DNA of 64,000 nucleotides from Nitrospirota bacterium. Lineage in GTDB: Bacteria; Nitrospirota; Nitrospiria; Nitrospirales; Nitrospiraceae. The translations under genes and the position numbers were made by a program. The stretch spans positions 1 through 64,000 of the forward strand of contig JAUSMA010000015.1 in assembly GCA_030645475.1 (NCBI GenBank), read 5' to 3'. Of the stretch, positions 37,989 to 49,638 are shown one piece after another. Below the pieces are notes generated by a model. That model made no database searches. It was not told the DNA's origin and worked only from the letters and a program-made list of their open reading frames with translations. The stretch's first letter is position 1. The number at the start of each line of letters is the position of its first letter.

Positions 37989-39764
37989 TTAGAGGGTCTT
38001 TCCCTTCCGCTTGTTCGATCGTCTCGTGAGGACCCACCCTTCCAGGAGGACCACACCAAAGGCAATCACAACCGGATAGATATAGGCTTCGCGAGGCGTC
38101 GGCGGCTCCAGGAAGGTGTAGTAGAAGGCCGAAACGGCCATCTTCCGTCCTGCGTCGCCGTTGTGGCCGTCCCAAGCAAAGAACACCGTGGGAATGTATT
38201 GTCCCATTTCGAAGAAGGTATCTTCGTCGTAATCCTGATCCTTCTTGTTTCCCAAAGGACGCTGAATGATGACCGTCCAACGTCCATTCTTCCACTCTGA
38301 GTGAAGAATCTTGATATTCTCCTCGTAGGTATCGCGCTGTGTGAAGTCCTTGTCCCATCCGGTACCTTCAAAGGCACGGAGTGAGCCATCAGCTTCCCAC
38401 TTCACAATATCAACAGGGAACTGCTCATTGCTGCCGAACAGATACCGTGGCTTAATCGGCGCCGGAAGTTCTTTCCACTTCACGGCCGTTTGCATCGCGA
38501 CCGCATCGTTGTACACCGTGTAGTTATTCTGATGCGAGGCAATCGAACCCTCTTCGCCAGTCTTCGGATCTTGTTCCTTGACATCGACATTCACTGACGT
38601 CGGCGCCCAAGGCAACTTCCCTTCGGCCACACTCTTCGTCCGGTCGTCCCACTGGAACATGAATACGACATGCTTGTCGTTATAGAGGGACTTCACCCAA
38701 ATATCGTCGATCCGATTCACGAAGTTTCTTGGCTTGTGAGTGATCTGACCACCCATCGCGATATACCGTCTAGCCCGATTCTTCCACAACTCATGCTCTG
38801 GATCTGCCGGGATTTCCCCTTCGACCACCCCTGAGGACACCACAAAGTTGATCTTCGGCTTGTCCGCCTGCGGATCGATCGCTAGGGGTTTCCCGTCAGC
38901 CTCTCGCTCACACAGCGAGTTCACGAAGTTGGCAATGTGCCACCGTTCTTCAACCGTGCTGTTGTCAGCGAACGAGGGCATCGGCGTACCGTTGACTCCG
39001 GTCGAAAACGTCCGGAAAATGTTTTTGACATTATAGGGATCTTGGCGGCTGCCCCTGAAGTTCCAGCACTTGTGCCAGTCGGCCGGCTGAATTGAAAAAC
39101 CCCAGTCATCTTTCAGATTGAACGCATTGCCGTCGCCACGGCCTTCAGCGCCGTGACATTCCACACACTTCTTCTCGACGATGAGCTCTGCGCCCTTCTT
39201 TAAACTCTCTTCTGACGCGGCAATCGGCTTCAGCTCATCAAGCTGTAGAACGGTCTGACTTTCAGATGCCTTATCGGTGAACTTTCTATCCTTCACCAGC
39301 TGTGTCGTGACAAAAGACAAGACTTGGAGCCGCTGCTCTTCAGTCAGAATACCTTCCCAGGATGGCATGGCTGAACCTGGCAGACCATGTGTGACGGTCT
39401 CAAACAGATCGTTCTGACCAGGAATGGGCTTCTTGGCATCGAACAACGGCAACTCACCGCTCGCCGTGCGACGAATCTTGAACGTGCCCTGGTTGAAGTT
39501 ACGGGGGCGAGGCCAGAGACGATCTGCGCCAGGTCCATCACCCGCACCATCGACGCCGTGGCACCAGACACACTTGGTAAAGTACACGCGCTTGCCTGCC
39601 TCAATCATGTCGGCAGCAGGTTCAGGCGACAATTCAGCCTTCTTGAAACCCTCAGGAAGGGCATCTGCGGCAAAAGCTACGCCCCCGGTGCTCCCGGAGA
39701 CCAGGATAATTCCGAAGGCAGTCGCGAGGAGCGCCCCCGCCTTCAGACTAAACGAATTCTTCAT
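37989..39764 (-). CDS. Dihaem cytochrome c fused to an NxrC-like domain, membrane-anchored
   Basis: A 591-residue protein. ATG 39764 is preferred (GAGGG five bases upstream). A signal peptide is followed by two cytochrome c domains with CVWCH (65-69) and CVECH (200-204), each with a distal MPSW or MPSF Met. The second half is a gamma-subunit-like haem-b domain, with QWDDRTKS and FAWDGHNGDAGRKMAVSAF. The usual CMGQ block is replaced by LFGSNEQ, so the Met ligand seen in other NxrC-like proteins is not evident. A C-terminal helix (YIYPVVIAFGVVLLEGWVL) anchors it outside the membrane. It is the last gene of operon A and probably feeds electrons to bd-like oxidase 1. Confidence 0.8.
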   Translation of the reverse strand: MKNSFSLKAGALLATAFGIILVSGSTGGVAFAADALPEGFKKAELSPEPAADMIEAGKRVYFTKCVWCHGVDGAGDGPGADRLWPRPRNFNQGTFKIRRTASGELPLFDAKKPIPGQNDLFETVTHGLPGSAMPSWEGILTEEQRLQVLSFVTTQLVKDRKFTDKASESQTVLQLDELKPIAASEESLKKGAELIVEKKCVECHGAEGRGDGNAFNLKDDWGFSIQPADWHKCWNFRGSRQDPYNVKNIFRTFSTGVNGTPMPSFADNSTVEERWHIANFVNSLCEREADGKPLAIDPQADKPKINFVVSSGVVEGEIPADPEHELWKNRARRYIAMGGQITHKPRNFVNRIDDIWVKSLYNDKHVVFMFQWDDRTKSVAEGKLPWAPTSVNVDVKEQDPKTGEEGSIASHQNNYTVYNDAVAMQTAVKWKELPAPIKPRYLFGSNEQFPVDIVKWEADGSLRAFEGTGWDKDFTQRDTYEENIKILHSEWKNGRWTVIIQRPLGNKKDQDYDEDTFFEMGQYIPTVFFAWDGHNGDAGRKMAVSAFYYTFLEPPTPREAYIYPVVIAFGVVLLEGWVLTRRSNKRKGKTL

Positions 39765-39814
39765 GGTTTCCCTCATGTCGTAAATCCAGGTTGGCTAGAA
39801 ATTCCCGTGAACGA

Positions 39815-40852
39815 TTAGTCCCAGGTTCGGGGGTAATACCCCGTGTGCCAATATTCGAACAAGATGACTTTCCAGATTTCGTCCACAGTCAGATGCTGCT
39901 CCCACGGTGGCATCACAGAGGCCCAGGGGAACCCTTCGTTCGGCAACCCGATTCCACCCTTGGCCACACGCCAGAAAATGAACGTTTCCTGTAATTGTGC
40001 AATCGTTCCCGGATCAGTAAAGTTCGCAGGAATTGGATTGAAAGCAAATGCATGGAGGCCGCGACCGTTCAGGTTATCGCCGTGGCAGAAGTGGCAGTTT
40101 TGGAAGAAGATCTCTCCCCCCTCACGCACATACTTCAGGTAGCCCTGAGCATCTTTATCCCAGGGATTGGCATTCGGCTTCATCAACCGACCCATACCCT
40201 GCTCCACAATATTCGCGTTGCTATATTCCTGATCGAACTTCCCTTCGAGGTTGACACGATAGGGGTTCTGCGATGTTTGAAGTGTATACGTCTTTCCATG
40301 CACCTTGGTGCTGGCCGGTGGCGCCGGATGCACCGTGCGCAACTCGATGGGCTCCTCTGACTTCGGCACCATCGCGTTATAGGAGAACCCGCCGATCAAA
40401 ATCGGCAACAGGACCAGATAGGCGTACCGCAACAATTTGTTTGCCCCGGTTTGGGCATCCAAAATGTTCATGATCGGCTGCTTGAACTTCTTCCAATCTT
40501 CCTCGTTCGCTGAGACCCACATAAACACAGCTATGAGCGAGACGGTCCCGTACATAGCGCGAACGCTGAACGGAATCGGCGGATACACACGATACTTCAA
40601 ATACAGAAGAATGAACGACCAAAAGAAAATCCCCTGCCAGAAGCGAGGGAGCGCCATTCCCATGGAAGCCGACATATAGCTTAGCCCTGTAAAACCCGCG
40701 ACAAATAGCGCGAGCTCAAAGAGCACTTGCATAGGCATGTAACCTTCGACCAGGCGCACGGTATTTGACGGAATGATATCCACAATCATTCCGGCAAGCA
40801 GGAGTATCCCAACAGCTCCTATGAGTGCCGCGACTGACATTAATGCTTTCAT
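39815..40852 (-). CDS. Membrane cytochrome c with one haem
   Basis: The start is ATG 40852 after AAGGGAG, giving 345 residues. About five membrane helices occupy the first 160 residues (LIGAVGILLLAGMIV, VLFELALFVAGFTGLSYM, FWQGIFFWSFILLYL, VSLIAVFMWV, LVLLPILIGGFSY). A periplasmic cytochrome c domain follows, with CHFCH at 253-257 and the later FPWASVMPPWEQHL, whose Met is the likely sixth ligand. It is the middle cytochrome of operon A, between the two-domain cytochrome and the NxrC-like fusion, and is a probable oxidase subunit. Confidence 0.8.
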   Translation of the reverse strand: MKALMSVAALIGAVGILLLAGMIVDIIPSNTVRLVEGYMPMQVLFELALFVAGFTGLSYMSASMGMALPRFWQGIFFWSFILLYLKYRVYPPIPFSVRAMYGTVSLIAVFMWVSANEEDWKKFKQPIMNILDAQTGANKLLRYAYLVLLPILIGGFSYNAMVPKSEEPIELRTVHPAPPASTKVHGKTYTLQTSQNPYRVNLEGKFDQEYSNANIVEQGMGRLMKPNANPWDKDAQGYLKYVREGGEIFFQNCHFCHGDNLNGRGLHAFAFNPIPANFTDPGTIAQLQETFIFWRVAKGGIGLPNEGFPWASVMPPWEQHLTVDEIWKVILFEYWHTGYYPRTWD

Positions 40853-40895
40853 CGGCAAACTCCCTTTACTCAACAAAAGAGGTAGACAGACAAGA

Positions 40896-42209
40896 CTATG
40901 AAATCTTCGGTGGCGGCGATCCCGCCTTCACCTGCGACAAATAATCGACGATCTTCTTCAGCGCCCCGGCGCTGAGCTTCTGTCCGAACACTTTCGGCAT
41001 CGTATTGTCCGGGAATGGCTTCACCACATAGGCACTTGGTGAGACAATCGACTCCATAATGTAATCCGGAACAGTTTTTGCCGTCCCTTTGTAGTCCTTA
41101 TCCTTTATGCGAAGAGGAGCATTTGTGCCTTCTTCGAGCTTAGGACCAATCGTACCAACTGCCCCAGGAATGCCAGGGATAGTGTGGCAGGACACGCACT
41201 GAGCCTTTGCTAAAATCTGATCCACCGGCTCCGTTCCATCTGCCAGCAAGGCGCTGGGCGGTCCGGCTGCCTTGTCATCTTGCTGCTTTGGACGATCGGC
41301 TTCCGGAATAAACTTCTCATAGGACTTGACGATCTCGTCATATGTCGGAGCGTCTCGCCCTTCGCGGATATAGAGCCACGTATCAACAGCCGCCAACTCT
41401 GCGAGACTCAGCGAGATCGGTGGCTTGTGGATGGCAGGCATTGGGCTTTCTTTATCGTTCGTACCCTTCACACCAAAGCCGGCAACAACGTAACAGCTCG
41501 GGCAGGAGTGGGACTCAGCGATATACTCTTGGCCATTTTCTGCAGTGCCCGCTCCAGGAAATGCTTCCTTCTGAGCATAGTCTCTACCTGCAGGCTTTCC
41601 CTTGCTGTACTTAGGATCTTCCAGCCGCTCTTTACCTGCACGCTCAGGAATACCGTCAAGGTTTGGTGCACGCTCTCCCAGCATTCCTTTGTGGAACGCA
41701 TGACAAAGTGGACATTGCCCTTTCCCAATCGCGCCCTGAACCTTATTTTGCCCGATGCCCCCGAAAATGATCTTTTCGCCTTCATCGGCCAACTGCTGCG
41801 CGGTCATCGCCTCATACTGAAGCTTCTCTTCTTTCGGAGGAAATCCACCTTCGACCTGCGGCAACCAATTGCCATAGCCTGATAAGCCAGCAGCAACAAG
41901 GAACATGAAGCCGCCGATCTTGAGCAATGCGGCTTGATTGGGAAAGTAGATCCCCATCATAAAACACATTGCAGTGATGAGAACTAAGGAGACAGGCAAC
42001 ATCCGGTTCGCACCATAGAAACTGGTCTCATAGTGCGCAATTGCCAGCAACAGCATGAACGCAGCGATCGTGCCAATAAAGAGCTTGAACGTTGCGCGCT
42101 TCTTTGCAGTTGGATCACTAATCGATATCAGAGAGTACACGAGAAGCCCCGCGAGAAGCGCGAGCAGTGGCCACCCTATTGAAATAGCTTCGTTTATCAG
42201 ATCGCCCAC
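40896..42209 (-). CDS. Membrane cytochrome c with two normal and one degenerate haem site
   Basis: I place the start at GTG 42209, seven bases after CAGGAGG; the upstream in-frame codon lacks a ribosome site. The 437-residue product has about four N-terminal helices and three c-type segments. CPLCH at 166-170 and CVSCH at 338-342 are normal, but the middle one reads CPSCY (236-240), with TAC in place of a His codon. It follows bd-like oxidase 1 directly in operon A and is a likely electron-donating subunit of that oxidase. Confidence 0.8.
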   Translation of the reverse strand: MGDLINEAISIGWPLLALLAGLLVYSLISISDPTAKKRATFKLFIGTIAAFMLLLAIAHYETSFYGANRMLPVSLVLITAMCFMMGIYFPNQAALLKIGGFMFLVAAGLSGYGNWLPQVEGGFPPKEEKLQYEAMTAQQLADEGEKIIFGGIGQNKVQGAIGKGQCPLCHAFHKGMLGERAPNLDGIPERAGKERLEDPKYSKGKPAGRDYAQKEAFPGAGTAENGQEYIAESHSCPSCYVVAGFGVKGTNDKESPMPAIHKPPISLSLAELAAVDTWLYIREGRDAPTYDEIVKSYEKFIPEADRPKQQDDKAAGPPSALLADGTEPVDQILAKAQCVSCHTIPGIPGAVGTIGPKLEEGTNAPLRIKDKDYKGTAKTVPDYIMESIVSPSAYVVKPFPDNTMPKVFGQKLSAGALKKIVDYLSQVKAGSPPPKIS

Positions 42210-42291
42210 GATTGTAACCTCCTGAGGTTTTGGTAAGAGCGGAGGCACGTACCACGCGCCTCCACTCCCCCAAGCAAGATCCTAAAGATGA

Positions 42292-44205
42292 TCAGTGGCT
42301 CCCAGCTGGCTGCGCAGCGCCGCCTGGAACCCCTGCCTTTACTTCAACTGGCGCCTTCTTTATCCCGAGGCTACCAAGCCAGAAGACAAAGAGAATGCTG
42401 ATCCAGAAGAACAACACATTGAATGAAATCATATTTGCGGCAAATCCCACTGTATGGGTATAGGCCCAAGGTGAGTTATCCCGCATGATCTCATTCACGT
42501 GCCAGAACAATCGGACTGAGGAGCGAATGTACCCCATCAACCCCATCATCCAAGTAAAGGCTGTCGCAAGCATGATCAAAGCATACTGCGACCGAGCTGA
42601 GATCTTTCCCCACTCGATAGGCCCCATCTGCTTGGCGCCCTTCATCATGAAGCTATTGAGTGCAAACATGAAAAAGAGGCAGGACAGCGTCGTAGCGACT
42701 TGAGGCACCGACAGACCGACTCGCACGTTTGCCGGGATATAATATCCCAGGACCGCGAGCCCAATAATATTGACGTAGGCACAACCAAAGAACATACCCA
42801 TGAAGATATTGCCGAACTTCGACCAGGACACCGTCGAGACCTTGTTGCCTCGCATGTACCAGACGAAACTAAGAATGGTGGTGGTAATGATGACGTTGAT
42901 TCCACCGTTCTTGGCCGACATGACGCCATAGTTCCCCAACACCGGGTGCTGCTGACCACCCATCGCCTTGAGCTCAGCGGGAGTCATGACAATCGTGTGA
43001 GGAGTAATGAACACCAGGTAGCCGCAACAGAGGACGAACACGAGATACTTGATGTAGCGTTGATATTTCTCGGCACCACGCATCCGGCCTAGAGCCTGCC
43101 AGAGATAGTAGTTAGTGCTGAGAAAGAGAATGCCGATCATCGTAGCTTGAATGATGAAGAGCCAAGCCAGAAGACCGCCCATGAGGGTAATGCCCATCTG
43201 CTGACGGTAGGCATACACTTCGCGCATCAGCCAATAACCGGCGAATGGCAAGGGGATCAAGAACGCCACGCCGAGCGCCATGGCGATATAGCCCATCCAA
43301 TCATAATGCGCACGATCTTCGTCGGTCTTGGAGGCCAAAAACTTGTACGCCGCGTAGGCCGCCACGACACCACCACCGAACGCCATGTTACCCAAAATGC
43401 GATGCAGGTTCAGCGGATTCCAAAGTGCGGTATGGATGACGTGCCAGATGTTCCCAAGATAGCGCCCCTGCTCATCGACTCCGGCCGGCGACATCATGAA
43501 CCCGATCCAGGAATTCGCCAAGAACATGAGCAACGTTCCGATCACGTTCAAAATGACGGACAGGCTCAAGTGAATCCACTTCAGAAACCCTTCCCTCATC
43601 TTGTCCCAGCCGTAGTAATAGATGTAGAGGGTTCCGCTCTCCGCCACAAACATCAATGCATAAATATGCATGACCGGACGGAAGATACTGGATAAGTAAC
43701 CGAAGAACGCCGGATACAGAGTCAGGAAGGTGAAGATCAAGATACCACCGAGAATGGCGGTCAACGAATAGGCCGTCAGACTGATCTTGATGAAGTCGTA
43801 GGCGAGCTGATCATACCGCTTCGCCATCGCTTTATCCTTCGTCACCACTCCCATGAACTCGATGACCATGCAGAAAATCGGAACCGCGAGCACAAAACTT
43901 CCGTAATAGAGGTGCTGCTGATTTGCGAACCAGAGCAACACGCGACTCTCGAAGTTGTATCGCGGATAATCCCGAGGACCATCGACGGTCTTCGGAGCAG
44001 GGGCACCGACAACGATACCCTCCGTCTTATAATAGACGTCTCTCCCCTTCTCGACCTTCGCCTCACCATCCTTCTTCACCGCATCAGGCGCATCCGCGCC
44101 CAAAGCTAGCGTTGGAAGCGATACGGCGATGGGGAGCAGGAGAAGGCCAATCATCGCGCAAAGCGCCATGATTGAGAACAACTTCTTCCCAGCCACTAAA
44201 CCCAT
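42292..44205 (-). CDS. Atypical cytochrome bd-like oxidase subunit, copy 1
   Basis: ATG 44205 follows AAGGAGG; the 637-residue product has a signal or first helix (FSIMALCAMIGLLLLPIAVS) and about fourteen membrane helices. CydA-like blocks include QQHLYYGSFVLAVPIF (His in the CydA H19 position), FVAESGTLYIYYYGWDKMRE (Glu of the proton path), NPLNLHRILGNMAFGGGVVA and PFAGYWLMREVY. The quinol-oxidase GRQPW motif is absent, and c-type cytochromes are encoded downstream, so a cytochrome c rather than a quinol may be the donor. Probably a terminal oxidase of the nitrite-oxidising chain. About 55% longer alignment blocks are shared with copy 2 at 47767-49638 by eye. Confidence 0.8.
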   Translation of the reverse strand: MGLVAGKKLFSIMALCAMIGLLLLPIAVSLPTLALGADAPDAVKKDGEAKVEKGRDVYYKTEGIVVGAPAPKTVDGPRDYPRYNFESRVLLWFANQQHLYYGSFVLAVPIFCMVIEFMGVVTKDKAMAKRYDQLAYDFIKISLTAYSLTAILGGILIFTFLTLYPAFFGYLSSIFRPVMHIYALMFVAESGTLYIYYYGWDKMREGFLKWIHLSLSVILNVIGTLLMFLANSWIGFMMSPAGVDEQGRYLGNIWHVIHTALWNPLNLHRILGNMAFGGGVVAAYAAYKFLASKTDEDRAHYDWMGYIAMALGVAFLIPLPFAGYWLMREVYAYRQQMGITLMGGLLAWLFIIQATMIGILFLSTNYYLWQALGRMRGAEKYQRYIKYLVFVLCCGYLVFITPHTIVMTPAELKAMGGQQHPVLGNYGVMSAKNGGINVIITTTILSFVWYMRGNKVSTVSWSKFGNIFMGMFFGCAYVNIIGLAVLGYYIPANVRVGLSVPQVATTLSCLFFMFALNSFMMKGAKQMGPIEWGKISARSQYALIMLATAFTWMMGLMGYIRSSVRLFWHVNEIMRDNSPWAYTHTVGFAANMISFNVLFFWISILFVFWLGSLGIKKAPVEVKAGVPGGAAQPAGSH

Positions 44206-44286: not shown

Positions 44287-44409
44287 CTACTTCCTGAACA
44301 AATACCAGAAGTCCAGTCCCTGCGAATCCATCAAAAAGTGATCGACTCCCACGAAATAGGCAACACAAATTACTAGCGACACAAGCACATAAACGATTGT
44401 CTGACCCAT
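44287..44409 (-). CDS. 40-residue single-helix membrane peptide, oxidase operon A
   Basis: ATG 44409 follows GGGAGGGAG by five bases. The peptide begins MGQTIVYVLVSLVICVAYFV, a near-continuous membrane helix, and ends SQGLDFWYLFRK before TAG 44287-44289. It lies 81 bases before the start of bd-like oxidase 1 and 61 bases after another 40-residue peptide. Size and place recall CydX/CydS or CcoQ-type accessory subunits of terminal oxidases, though no sequence relation is claimed. Confidence 0.7.
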   Translation of the reverse strand: MGQTIVYVLVSLVICVAYFVGVDHFLMDSQGLDFWYLFRK

Positions 44410-44470
44410 TAGACTCCCTCCCTCACAGCTTGCAGACATTCAAAAACCCCAGAAATAGAGCGGCCCTCAC

Positions 44471-44593
44471 TTAGCAGGGGCACTGAATTCCTGCGAACCA
44501 ATAAAAAAACCAGATTCCAGCCGCACAGGTGATGTAGAAAATCATCTTGCCGATGTTAACCTTCATCTCGCTATCTGCTACCACTGTTGCCAT
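44471..44593 (-). CDS. 40-residue membrane peptide, first gene of oxidase operon A
   Basis: ATG 44593 follows AGAAGGAGACACA, a good ribosome site. The peptide starts MATVVADSEMKVNIGKMIFY, then ITCAAGIWFFYWFAG forms a single membrane helix, and it ends IQCPC before TAA 44471-44473. A consensus promoter lies about 150 bases upstream. The terminal CPC may bind a metal or haem. It is probably a small oxidase subunit or assembly peptide. Confidence 0.7.
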   Translation of the reverse strand: MATVVADSEMKVNIGKMIFYITCAAGIWFFYWFAGIQCPC

Positions 44594-44649: not shown

Positions 44650-44678
44650 TTGACACACAGATTTTCATATGTTATTCA
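44650..44678 (+). promoter_or_regulatory. Possible sigma-70 promoter for a plus-strand micro-ORF
   Basis: TTGACA (44650-44655), a 17-base spacer and TATTCA (44673-44678). It points to the 34-codon frame at 44717. The -10 matches only four of six positions. Confidence 0.4.
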
Positions 44679-44716
44679 AAATTCTTTGCCGCACACGAAA
44701 TATCAGGGGAAAATCG

Positions 44717-44821
44717 ATGATTGCAAACTCAAAAGTGTTCGACATTATAGTTTTGGCCGGTATGGTTGTCAATATAATTTTGGCCGTGTTCCTCATTCTC
44801 TACCACTTTGATTTGTTGTAG
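44717..44821 (+). CDS. Possible 34-residue membrane peptide
   Basis: ATG 44717 lies six bases after AGGGGAAAATCG. The frame reads MIANSKVFDIIVLAGMVVNI then ILAVFLILYHFDLL and ends TAG at 44819-44821, a good single membrane helix. However, the minus-strand consensus promoter of operon A lies inside it (44744-44772), and AT-rich promoter DNA easily encodes hydrophobic residues. It may be real or a by-product of the promoter region. Confidence 0.4.
   Translation: MIANSKVFDIIVLAGMVVNIILAVFLILYHFDLL
44744..44772 (-). promoter_or_regulatory. Perfect consensus sigma-70 promoter of oxidase operon A
   Basis: On the minus strand TTGACA (44772-44767) and TATAAT (44749-44744) are separated by exactly 17 bases, both hexamers matching 6/6. 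AT-rich sequence (CAAAATTATA) lies just upstream of -35, as in UP elements. Transcription would start near 44737 and leave a leader of about 140 bases before the first 40-residue peptide. Confidence 0.85.
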
Positions 44822-44853: not shown

Positions 44854-45732
44854 TTATTTCATGCCTGAAACCGCACAGCGAAATCCGATCGTTTCATCGC
44901 GAAAGTCGGAAACCATTTTACTCCGACTGGTGATACGAATATCAGCCCCCGTGGTCGCGTATCCTCCCCCTCGAAGCACCCGAAAGGTGCCAAACTCAGG
45001 GCCTTGAGGGTTTCGTTCGGGAGTCTCCTTAAAATAGCTTTCCGCGTACCAGTCGGCCACCCACTCCATCACATTTCCTGCTCCATCCATGACACCGTAC
45101 GGGCTCTTATCGGTCAGAACGGCACCGACAGGCGCGGCGACATCATGACCATCCTGCACCCTGGCCCAATTCGCTCCGTTGGGCTGCTCCACATTACCCC
45201 AGGGCCAGAGACGGCCATCCGTTCCTCTCATCGCCTTCTCCCACTCCGCCTCAGTGGGAAGCCGCTTCCCCTTCCAATGACAATAGGCTTCCGCATCCTC
45301 CCATGACACGTACACCACGGGCTGATTGATGCCACGCATCCTGCTCATGTTCTTGGCGTAGCGGGAAGGAGGACCAGACTTGCGGTGGCCGGTCGCATCG
45401 ACAAATTGCTGGTAATAAAAGTTGGCCACTTCGTACCGATCAATGGCAAAGGCATCCAGCACCAGCGTGCGCTGCGGCCGTTCGTCAAATCCGTCATGAT
45501 CGGTCCCGCGGATGAAGGGCCCTGCCGGAATTGAGACCATCTCTTCCCGGACCGGCTCTTCACGAGTAACCTGAGAGGAATCGAGCGGCTCTGACGGGGT
45601 TGCATCCGTGGAATTGCTTGGAGGATCCTCAAATGGAGTCAGCGTGGTGCCACGGATGATTGCCAGGATGGGAAGCGCAGCAAACACGAGGACGGTAAGA
45701 AGAAACGCGATCTTAAATTTACTTTCAAGCAT
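44854..45732 (-). CDS. Membrane-anchored FGE-sulfatase-domain protein without catalytic cysteines, copy 1
   Basis: ATG 45732 gives 292 residues. An N-terminal helix (IAFLLTVLVFAALPILAII) anchors a formylglycine-generating-enzyme fold: MVSIPAGPFIRGTDHDGFDE, RLPTEAEWEKAMRG, YGVMDGAGNVMEWVADW and TIGFRCAVSG. In true FGE the GGSxxC segment holds the active cysteines; here it is RGGGYATTGADIRITSR, with none. Thus it is probably a binding or assembly protein rather than a sulfatase activator. It is the last gene of operon B and starts six bases after the stop of copy 2. Confidence 0.8.
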   Translation of the reverse strand: MLESKFKIAFLLTVLVFAALPILAIIRGTTLTPFEDPPSNSTDATPSEPLDSSQVTREEPVREEMVSIPAGPFIRGTDHDGFDERPQRTLVLDAFAIDRYEVANFYYQQFVDATGHRKSGPPSRYAKNMSRMRGINQPVVYVSWEDAEAYCHWKGKRLPTEAEWEKAMRGTDGRLWPWGNVEQPNGANWARVQDGHDVAAPVGAVLTDKSPYGVMDGAGNVMEWVADWYAESYFKETPERNPQGPEFGTFRVLRGGGYATTGADIRITSRSKMVSDFRDETIGFRCAVSGMK

Positions 45733-45737
45733 GTCTG

Positions 45738-46661
45738 TTATGACGCCGAGGGGCTGTCGCCAATCTCCATATCGCTCGCACATCGAAACCCGATCGTAAT
45801 ATCCGTCCGCCAATGCTTCGCCGCAAATCGTTTGGATAGCCGGGCGTTATGCTCAGTCTCTCGCCACGACCCCCCACGCACCACCTTCAAATCGACATCG
45901 TCCGGCCCTTTCGGGTCACGGTAGGGCGCTTTCTGGTAGTAATGCTCATCGTACGAATCCGCGACCCATTCCGCGACGTTCCCCGTCATGTCATAGATTC
46001 CATAGGGACTTCTCCCGGACTCGAACGACCCGGGAGGCGCGAGATACCGATAGCCATCTTCACTCCCATCCACATTGGCATTGGCGCGGCCATTCATGAA
46101 GGTGTCGCCCCACGCGTACTTCCGCTTCCCCTCGCCACGGCCGGCCTTTTCCCATTCCGCTTCCGTGGGAAGCCGCTTGCCTGCCCATTTGCAATAGGCC
46201 CCCGCCTCGTCCCACGACATGCTCATCGCCGCAAACTCCGGCTTCAGCAGCTTGGATTGATCGTCTTCAAACACCTCGATCTTCGGCAAGGGCCGCTTGG
46301 TCATTTTAGCGAACCGGGCATATTCCTCTTGCGACACCTCTTTCTTGTCGAGAAAGAACCCCTTGAGAAACACTTGACGCTCCGGCACTTCGTCTGGATC
46401 ACCATCTTTGCTGCCCATGATGAACGGACCTTCGGGGATCTGCACCATTTCGCGGCCCTCATCGCCCATCTTTGTTTTATACATGGAGTAATCCAGCGAA
46501 GGGGCACTGCTCGGCGCAGGACGAGACTCAGTCTTGATCGACAGAACCAGCTCTTTCATCTTCTTCGCCTTGTACGATTCATAGACCAGCAAGCTGATGA
46601 TCAGGAAGAACGACGCAAAGACAAAAATGATCGAACCGATGAGTACTCCCCTATTTTCCAT
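45738..46661 (-). CDS. Membrane-anchored FGE-sulfatase-domain protein without catalytic cysteines, copy 2
   Basis: A 307-residue paralogue of the following gene. An N-terminal helix (GSIIFVFASFFLIISLLVYE) precedes the same fold: MVQIPEGPFIMGSKDGDPDE, RLPTEAEWEKAGRG, YGIYDMTGNVAEWVADS and TIGFRCASDM. The catalytic segment reads RGGSWRETEHNARLSKR, again lacking cysteine. Tandem copies with differing termini could form a heterodimer outside the membrane. Context: immediately downstream of a glycine-rich membrane protein and bd-like oxidase 2. Confidence 0.8.
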   Translation of the reverse strand: MENRGVLIGSIIFVFASFFLIISLLVYESYKAKKMKELVLSIKTESRPAPSSAPSLDYSMYKTKMGDEGREMVQIPEGPFIMGSKDGDPDEVPERQVFLKGFFLDKKEVSQEEYARFAKMTKRPLPKIEVFEDDQSKLLKPEFAAMSMSWDEAGAYCKWAGKRLPTEAEWEKAGRGEGKRKYAWGDTFMNGRANANVDGSEDGYRYLAPPGSFESGRSPYGIYDMTGNVAEWVADSYDEHYYQKAPYRDPKGPDDVDLKVVRGGSWRETEHNARLSKRFAAKHWRTDITIGFRCASDMEIGDSPSAS

Positions 46662-47086: not shown

Positions 47087-47770
47087 TTAACGGCCTGCGC
47101 TCGCAACCATCGATCCAAAGTCGATTTCCACCCCAGGCCCGGCAATGATCGAAATACCCCAGGCTTTCGCCGCCGGCTCATGCTGGTGAATCCGCTTGAA
47201 ATCTTCGTAGACGTTCACGCGCTCTTCAAACCACTGACCGACATCCTTGGTGCCGCTTTGCACCACGATCTCCGAGCCGCTGAACATGCCCCCTTCGGTC
47301 ACCGTCCCCTCAGGCTTCGAGGCACTCCAGATATACTTCGTGAACACCGGGATGAACATGAGATCCGTATCCAGGGAGGCGTAAATCGCTGCAATCGGTT
47401 CCGTTCCTGCCGTAGCGGATTTATGCAGGCGCCAGCGCCAGGTCAAGACCGGAAACGCCTTCGGGTCCCAATCGATCTTCTTCTTCTTGATTCTCTGTCC
47501 TGCATCCTTCGCCGCCAGAAAACTCACACCGTTCTCAGTCTGAACCTTATAGGCATCCCGCCCCTTGGACTGACTTCGCTGATTTTCATGATCCCAATTC
47601 GATGGGAACCCGTCCGTTTCCTTTGCCTGAAAATCCTCCAGAACCAAAGATGGGTTTTGGGCCGAGATCGCACCCTGCATCACGAAGCTTCCACAGATAA
47701 CCAGCCCGACTGCGAGATATCGTCGAATTATCGCCCCTCGCCTCATACGCGCAACCCTTTCGCTGTTCAT
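47087..47770 (-). CDS. DUF3047 secreted protein
   Basis: A 227-residue protein with a signal peptide (RYLAVGLVICGSFVMQGAIS). The domain matches DUF3047: LVLEDFQAKETDGFPSNWDH, VLTWRWRLHK, IYASLDTDLMFIPVFTKYIW. Its function is unknown; the fold is thought to be a beta-sandwich. Its ATG overlaps the stop of bd-like oxidase 2 by four bases, so the two are translated together. This close coupling hints at a periplasmic accessory role for the oxidase. Confidence 0.75.
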   Translation of the reverse strand: MNSERVARMRRGAIIRRYLAVGLVICGSFVMQGAISAQNPSLVLEDFQAKETDGFPSNWDHENQRSQSKGRDAYKVQTENGVSFLAAKDAGQRIKKKKIDWDPKAFPVLTWRWRLHKSATAGTEPIAAIYASLDTDLMFIPVFTKYIWSASKPEGTVTEGGMFSGSEIVVQSGTKDVGQWFEERVNVYEDFKRIHQHEPAAKAWGISIIAGPGVEIDFGSMVASAGR

Positions 47771-49638
47771 GCCTCTTGCGACGACGACGGCGCCAGAACC
47801 GTCGCATTTCCTTCGACCAAGTCTTCTCCCATCACGGGCAACTGATCACGCTGGCACATCCAGAAGAGCGCGAACACCGCTCCCCAGAACACCACCATGT
47901 TGAGCGTCACCATCTTCGCCGCAAACGCCAGATCCGGTGTAAAGGCCCAGGGAGAAACATCGGCCATCACCTCACTCACATGCCAAGCCAACCGCCCGGA
48001 CGAACGAATATACCCCATGAGACCCATGACCCATGAGAAGGCAGCCGCCAATCCGAATAGGCCCACCATGCCTCTGACCGATATCTTCCCCCATTGGACC
48101 GGCCCACGAATAAGCGCCCCCTTGAGCATCATGCGATTGATCACCAGCGCGCCCACCAGAACCGTGAACGTCGTCACCGCCTGCGGCGACGACAACCCGA
48201 CGCGAAGCTTCGCCGGCAGATAGAACCCATAGACCGAGAGGCAGATAATGTTGAGTGCACCGACCAGAAACAGCGCGCCGATCAGAAAGTTTCCTTTCTT
48301 CACCCAGGAGACAACCATCGTTCGATTTGCGCGCCGATAGTAGATGAAGCTCAGTGTGGTCACGAGAATCAAGATATTGACTGCGCCGTTCTTCGCCGAC
48401 ATCACGCCATAGTTGCCGACTACGGGATGCGACGAACCGCCCATCGCCTTCACCTCACTGCCCGACATCATGACGGTATGCGGCGTCAGCCAAATAAACA
48501 GGGCTAAGATCAAGACCCCGAGCAGCGACTGGTAATACGGCTGATACCGTTCACCGCCACGAAGGCGCGCCATGCTCTGCCATAGGTAATAATTCACGCC
48601 AAGAAACAACGCGCCGATCAAGAGCGCCTGCACCACGAAGAGCCAGGTGAGTAAGCCGCCCATCATCGTGACGCCCATGCTCTGACTAAACGCATAGACC
48701 GACCGCATCAACCAATAGCCGGCAAAGGGCATGGGTAACAACGCGCAGACCGTGACGAACAGAAACACATACCCCACCCAGTCGAAATAGGCGCGCTCTT
48801 CATCGGTCTTGCTGGTAAAGAAGCGATAGCAGGCATAGGCCAACACCACCGCACCGCCGGACATAATGTCTGCCAGGAAACGATGGACGTTTAATGGATT
48901 CCACAGCGCCGAATGGAGCAAATGCCATCCGTTGCCCAGAAACCGCCCTTTGGCATCGACACCGGCCGGCGCCATCATGAAGGCCGACCAGGAGTTCGCC
49001 AAGAACAGCAGCGCGGCCCCGAACAGGTTCGTCAAGACACCGATCGAGGCATGCCCCCACTTCAGCGCCGGCGCAGCCATCCGGCTCCAACTGTAGTAAT
49101 AGAGAATGAGCAGCAGCGATTCCCCGACGAACACGATCGCATAGAACGGCATGAAGGCCTTGAACGTCCCGCCCATATACTTCATGAAACTGGGATAGAA
49201 GAAGATGAACATCCCGAGCATGAGGCTCCCGACCACAGCCGTCACCGACAGAGCCAGGAGAGAGACTTTTGCCAAATCTCGCGCGAGGCCATCATAACGA
49301 AGGGCCAGCGCAGGCTTTTTACTGCTGAGCCCCAGGAACTCCAGCAAGACACAAAAGATCGGCAGTGCGAGGACAAACCCTCCGAAATACGTGTGCTGTT
49401 GCGTGACAAACCACACGAGCAATCGGCTGTCGAACGAACCGATCCTCGAATAAACCGTCTCTTGAGGAGAAGGAGCCGGCGGCCCCTGGGGAACGCCAGG
49501 TGTCTTGAAGTAGAGGTCGGTGGCATCCTCGGCAAAGGACTGGCTCTGACCACCCCAGCCGATCCAGGAAACAGCCAGCACAATCGCGATCAGGGCAACA
49601 AACCAGAACGCCCCGTGAGTTCTTTTTTTCATGGCCAT
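47767..49638 (-). CDS. Atypical cytochrome bd-like oxidase subunit, copy 2
   Basis: A 623-residue paralogue of the protein at 42292-44205, with the same order of blocks: QQHTYFGGFVLALPIFCVLL, FVGESLLLILYYYSW, NPLNVHRFLADIMSGGAVVL, PFAGYWLMRSVYAFSQSMGV and HPVVGNYGVMSAKNGAVNIL. The N-terminus has a leader helix (FWFVALIAIVLAVSWIGWG). The GRQPW quinol motif is again missing. Operon B lacks the c-type cytochromes that follow copy 1, so it may use another donor. It is five bases from the upstream membrane-protein gene and overlaps DUF3047. Confidence 0.8.
   Translation of the reverse strand: MAMKKRTHGAFWFVALIAIVLAVSWIGWGGQSQSFAEDATDLYFKTPGVPQGPPAPSPQETVYSRIGSFDSRLLVWFVTQQHTYFGGFVLALPIFCVLLEFLGLSSKKPALALRYDGLARDLAKVSLLALSVTAVVGSLMLGMFIFFYPSFMKYMGGTFKAFMPFYAIVFVGESLLLILYYYSWSRMAAPALKWGHASIGVLTNLFGAALLFLANSWSAFMMAPAGVDAKGRFLGNGWHLLHSALWNPLNVHRFLADIMSGGAVVLAYACYRFFTSKTDEERAYFDWVGYVFLFVTVCALLPMPFAGYWLMRSVYAFSQSMGVTMMGGLLTWLFVVQALLIGALFLGVNYYLWQSMARLRGGERYQPYYQSLLGVLILALFIWLTPHTVMMSGSEVKAMGGSSHPVVGNYGVMSAKNGAVNILILVTTLSFIYYRRANRTMVVSWVKKGNFLIGALFLVGALNIICLSVYGFYLPAKLRVGLSSPQAVTTFTVLVGALVINRMMLKGALIRGPVQWGKISVRGMVGLFGLAAAFSWVMGLMGYIRSSGRLAWHVSEVMADVSPWAFTPDLAFAAKMVTLNMVVFWGAVFALFWMCQRDQLPVMGEDLVEGNATVLAPSSSQEA

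Follow-up and report, generated by a model that had tools for sequence, protein, structure and literature searches.

In the window (the 64,000-nucleotide stretch of Nitrospirota DNA analyzed here), the operon of a bd-like, CydA-type membrane protein is headed by two genes for short membrane peptides, A and B, with a third gene, C, divergent from them. That all three are real protein-coding genes under purifying selection is close to certain from comparison of their sequences, and they probably constitute three small subunits of a membrane complex formed by the bd-like protein, c-type cytochromes and an alternative NxrC. Each peptide is the founding member of a new family.

RESULTS

Three small genes at the head of the bd-like operon

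The initial annotation had reported two unlisted membrane peptides with strong ribosome sites between a promoter and the bd-like gene. Both open reading frames were present (Table 1), each with a single hydrophobic stretch (A, MATVVADSEMKVNIGKMIFYITCAAGIWFFYWFAGIQCPC; B, MGQTIVYVLVSLVICVAYFVGVDHFLMDSQGLDFWYLFRK), and a clear ribosome site preceded both, AAGGAG 5 nt ahead of the start of A and GGGAG 4 nt ahead of that of B; the ribosome site of the bd-like gene was AAGGAGGT. The location was also as described, with a promoter that agrees with the consensus at all 12 positions upstream and the bd-like gene downstream. The shared length of exactly 40 residues is correct for A and B here but not for their relatives, which range from ~27 to 47 residues (A) and from ~33 to 58 residues (B), and it is a coincidence of this genome. 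For its part, the count of two peptides fell short, the divergent gene C (translation MIANSKVFDIIVLAGMVVNIILAVFLILYHFDLL; ribosome site AGGGG) having been overlooked. The bd-like gene comes immediately after A and B and is followed by two cytochrome genes and then by the gene for the alternative NxrC.

Table 1. Features of the peptide locus and its surroundings in the window
Feature	Positions	Strand	Description
Alternative NxrC gene	37989..39776	minus	two c-type cytochrome domains and a heme b domain of the ethylbenzene-dehydrogenase type
Membrane-anchored c-type cytochrome gene	39815..40876	minus	same operon
Membrane c-type cytochrome gene	40896..42248	minus	same operon
bd-like (CydA-type) membrane protein gene	42292..44205	minus	637 aa; the bd-like_3 of published work
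Peptide B gene	44287..44409	minus	40 aa, one TM helix
Peptide A gene	44471..44593	minus	40 aa, one TM helix
Candidate promoter of C	44650..44685	plus	TTGACA at 44650-44655 plus a conserved block
Peptide C gene	44717..44821	plus	34 aa, one TM helix, divergent from A
Operon promoter	44772-44744	minus	TTGACA-17-TATAAT, sigma-70 type, 12/12; inside the C coding sequence
Formylglycine-generating-enzyme type gene	44854-45813		sulfatase-modifying-factor type
Formylglycine-generating-enzyme type gene	45738-46661		sulfatase-modifying-factor type
Second bd-like gene	47767-49638		52% identical to bd-like_3

The conserved residues of the three peptides lie mostly inside or beside the helix. B carries the motif YF..hD..hM..QGL, with Y18, M27, Q30 and L32 invariant in the family alignment, and C has G15, N19 and Y29 invariant. 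The C terminus of A keeps a CPC across most Nitrospirales, and many deeper relatives have His at or near the end. Flanking charges suggest that A and C are oriented N-in, C-out.

Two adjoining genes of the formylglycine-generating-enzyme type, assigned by a look at their sequences, lie beyond C. Similar genes stand beside the peptide loci of other families (L271 to L275), so the pair may belong to the peptide neighborhood.

Frame-specific purifying selection on A and B

The annotation had left the reality of the peptides to be judged by conservation at the protein level and by the ratio of synonymous to nonsynonymous change, and on both counts A and B behaved as genes. In single-sequence searches, A was recovered from 159 and B from 155 of 175 Nitrospiraceae genomes, without internal stops, and where compared the two were separated by ~185 nt. 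All 75 Nitrospiraceae assemblies holding a bd-like orthologue with its upstream DNA, as tallied by hand from the listing of orthologues, contained both. Four other assemblies were left out of this tally: G075 and G128, in which the bd-like gene is cut by the contig end, and G027 and G111, in which no orthologue was seen in the assembly (in G111, A itself stops at the contig edge). Nei-Gojobori counts on 69 to 72 distinct coding sequences gave in-frame pN/pS values of 0.23 for A and 0.28 for B (0.18 and 0.11, respectively, in close pairs), versus 0.93 to 1.79 in four of the five other frames. The remaining frame, an antisense one, gave lowish values (0.36 to 0.42), as is expected of a frame whose third positions coincide with those of the proposed one. 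A, B and C are single copy in nearly all genomes.

Peptide C and the embedded operon promoter

A single-sequence search recovered C from 54 of 58 Nitrospirales genomes. C occurs in the same genomes as A, and at every Nitrospirales locus examined it was divergent from A, at 70 to 172 nt from 5' end to 5' end. Its pN/pS was 0.18. The promoter of the A-B-bd-like operon lies within codons 10 to 19 of C. Of 82 distinct C sequences, 76 keep this perfect promoter; when the peptide was recoded at random with synonymous codons, 69 of 200,000 codings had it. These codons are thus under two constraints at once.

With the conserved -35 and -10 boxes lying in its coding sequence, C might be no gene but a mere echo of conserved promoter DNA. 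That reading is almost certainly wrong, and C as a by-product of promoter conservation was ruled out on two grounds: codons 20 to 34, beyond the promoter, showed 45 additional synonymous codons as opposed to 15 additional amino acids, and in deeper lineages the C protein was retained while the promoter was not. A separate plus-strand promoter probably serves C: a TTGACA is accompanied there by a conserved TGTTATTCAAAATT block; the -10 of this candidate is poor, and its conservation was judged by eye.

Distribution and gene order across Nitrospirota

Searching ahead of the bd-like genes of relatives, as had been proposed, A and B were found to recur upstream of the same gene across Nitrospirota: in other families they precede bd-like orthologues whose identity goes down to ~60%, one lineage still having them at 50%. 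A profile search of 246 Nitrospirota genomes detected B in 92, C in 95 and A in 103, with ~10 of the A matches weak (E above 0.001) and probably due to chance. B and C were absent, a few weak matches aside, from genomes without the bd-like_3 clade, and the phylogenetic profile of the three peptides tracked that clade. The profile E values at the source loci are not independent, the profiles having been built from those loci; the single-sequence searches with A, B and C and the first-round seeds of four and five sequences are independent of them.

Gene order varied more than gene content. In the deepest lineages (f13 and f18) the order was C-A-B-bd-like-cytochromes on one strand, and in f4, f5 and f8 C lay ~2.5 kb upstream on the opposite strand. 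These rearrangements have not parted C from A, B and the bd-like gene, so a common function is very probable. Lone copies of A (E values of 3e-16 to 9e-20) were seen in three Nitrospiraceae genomes (loci L285, L286 and L287), with neither a bd-like nor a cytochrome gene nearby.

Host operon and other bd-like copies

The bd-like protein matched Pfam Cyt_bd_oxida_I (E of 8e-20), gave profile matches to 9r2g and 5doq, and in its N-terminal half showed sequence similarity to Geobacillus and mycobacterial CydA. Its AlphaFold model (mean pLDDT of 82) has the CydA fold, with VIA-align Z scores of 30 to 34 against bd oxidases versus 20 to 23 against the membrane subunits of alternative complex III, and the sequence matches of its core among solved structures were to bd oxidases only. 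No cydB gene was found in the A-B-bd-like operon.

The operon matches the bd-like_3/alt_NxrC_2 cluster of Nitrospira moscoviensis, the genes of which are among the 40 most transcribed in that organism (PMC6606698). It is very probably also the TO_1 of Manganitrophaceae, an equation that we draw because TO_1 combines a bd-like protein with a periplasmic cytochrome b; TO_1 is proposed as a terminal oxidase (PMC9040806). Reverse electron flow has also been proposed for the complex (PMC3578206, PMC6606698), and the bd-like protein of the conserved cluster is reported to be without a copper ligand and a heme ligand that another variant has (PMC8026999). The literature is divided on O2 reduction by the complex (PMC3578206, PMC6606698, PMC8026999, PMC9040806). 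The three small genes go unmentioned in the passages of PMC6606698 and PMC9040806 that were consulted.

Around the three other bd-like genes of this genome, a look for small open reading frames resembling A, B or C found none. The window has its second bd-like gene 3.6 kb upstream of A, with no small frames of its own; the protein of this second gene might be the partner of bd-like_3 in a CydAA'-like pair. In the tree, the peptide-bearing bd-like proteins formed one clade that included three peptide-free members, namely, this second protein, whose placement is unsure because of long branches, and two further copies elsewhere. Lone second bd-like copies, 75 to 79% identical, were seen at L097, L098, L288 and L289; these have neither cytochrome genes nor peptides, which indicates that the peptides go with the full operon.

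DISCUSSION

Function of the peptides

The proposal that the peptides are missing subunits of a bd-like oxidase holds in part. A, B and C are real single-helix proteins, they are linked in one operon and they travel with one bd-like gene, and that they are small subunits is on these grounds the best reading; they are three rather than two, and they accompany only the bd-like gene of the alternative-NxrC cluster. By its CydA fold and its Cyt_bd_oxida_I match the host protein belongs to the cytochrome bd superfamily. Oxidase is a putative name for the host complex: anammox bacteria share the large-gene operon, and the literature offers both oxidase and reverse-flow readings. That anaerobic anammox bacteria have the operon speaks against O2 reduction as the sole role of the complex, though it may reduce O2 in Nitrospirota.

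The subunit reading is supported by near-universal co-occurrence, selection, synteny, the conserved promoter, the restriction to one bd-like clade and the CydA fold of the partner. It is weakened by the anammox operons without peptides, by the rare lone copies of A and by the fact that assembly factors would give the same pattern. The helices of A, B and C would pack around the bd-like core, the cytochrome anchors or both, and by analogy with CydX, CydH and CydS in cytochrome bd the complex may require them in order to assemble stably and to place its hemes. High-potential electrons would enter the complex from the periplasm, in Nitrospira from nitrite via NXR and elsewhere probably from other donors, and would reach the bd-like core by way of hemes c and b, with O2 or quinone as the end acceptor. 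A more elaborate scheme, in which the three helices replace CydB, the CPC or His of A (probably periplasmic) ligates a metal or heme at which electrons enter, and anammox bacteria compensate by extra bd-like helices, seems improbable.

Among the other explanations, the one to be taken most seriously is that the peptides act in assembly or maturation, by heme or metal insertion or by chaperoning the bd-like core or the cytochromes, and leave the finished complex. Such factors would leave a genomic pattern no different from that of subunits, A could use its C-terminal Cys-Pro-Cys or His for metal or heme binding, and the orphan copies of A fit this role. Against it speak the strong 1:1 linkage, the position at the head of a structural operon and the confinement of conserved residues largely to the helix and its borders, as in packing subunits; we regard assembly factors as rather unlikely. 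Much less credible is a leader-peptide or regulatory function, in which translation of the short frames, not their product, would control the operon. A and B do sit downstream of the conserved promoter and before the bd-like gene; however, their amino acids are kept while synonymous change is free, C lies on the other strand and changes place, and a search of the operon leader for known RNA elements found none. Small membrane toxins, or other unrelated membrane proteins present by chance, are equally hard to defend: some toxins are typically short, hydrophobic peptides with a single helix, and orphan A copies occur, but throughout a phylum the peptides accompany one respiratory operon almost without exception, in conserved synteny.

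Few respiratory enzymes of the nitrogen cycle are as poorly understood as the bd-like complexes of nitrite-oxidizing Nitrospirota, their partners, substrate and product being guessed from gene clusters. Three apparently overlooked subunits would make the inventory of components more complete for work by purification, heterologous expression and cryo-electron microscopy, in which an enzyme may disintegrate for want of one small subunit. A, B and C also mark the bd-like_3 clade in genomes, and the locus offers an example, throughout Nitrospirales, of a divergent small gene that harbors the promoter of an operon.

Comparison with known systems

The anammox operon (PMC3578206, PMC8026999) resembles that of the window in containing the bd-like protein, c-type cytochromes and an alternative NxrC in the same order, with ~37 to 48% bd-like identity, and differs in the absence of the peptide genes in front. 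No small TM frames were found in the right place ahead of the anammox operons, and B and C had no match genome-wide in 14 anammox genomes, A having been looked for at the locus. The Kuenenia/Brocadia-type bd-like proteins (L197 to L203 and L211) carry an insert of approximately two helices near position 470 to 490 of the window protein; that this insert represents fused peptides is at most a speculative idea, no convincing similarity being apparent by eye. In Scalindua and Anammoxibacter types, the diheme cytochrome is fused to the bd-like protein. Fusion loci (L204, L206, L207 and L268) showed this union as well as that of the monoheme cytochrome with alternative NxrC, the latter in a protein of 757 aa in L207 and probably also in the 749-aa frame of L268. 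Such natural fusions support one physical complex.

Searches of A and B against Pfam and NCBIfam gave no family match, and those against solved structures gave no credible one. Member by member, the A, B and C families matched no Pfam model of a bd small subunit at an E value of ≤1, including that of CydZ (DUF2474, PF10617), and none of a cbb3 small subunit; scattered matches to SecE (0.02), FixP_N (0.013, one A relative), TUNAR (0.0065) and syndecan were taken as chance. The peptides are thus not recognizable relatives of CydX, CydZ or CcoQ.

Solved complexes of the CydA fold carry small single-helix subunits. CydH and CydS are single-helix proteins of ~30 to 50 residues encoded beside a CydA-type gene and are often missed by annotation. 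The same is true of CydX, the most familiar small subunit of cytochrome bd, and of CydY and CydZ (PMC4325964), and A, B and C are like them in all these respects. CydX is encoded downstream of cydB and has the motif YxxWxxGx15E/D in 97% of its homologues (PMC4325964). This motif (Y-x2-W-x2-G-x15-E/D) was absent from the A, B and C sequences, and none of the three genes closes a cydAB operon on its 3' side, A and B being upstream and C divergent. The host complex also differs from cytochrome bd in having c-type cytochromes and no CydB gene in its operon. In the association of a small single-helix partner with an oxidase bearing c-type cytochromes, the arrangement recalls CcoQ/FixQ and the other small subunits of cbb3 oxidases, from which A, B and C are set apart by the lack of a Pfam match to CcoQ. 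Single-helix small subunits of bd-type enzymes are already known; what is new is the three families, the probable presence of three per complex and an operon without a CydB gene. As with known respiratory small subunits, each of the three is a conserved single-helix protein that is encoded and co-inherited with the large subunit.
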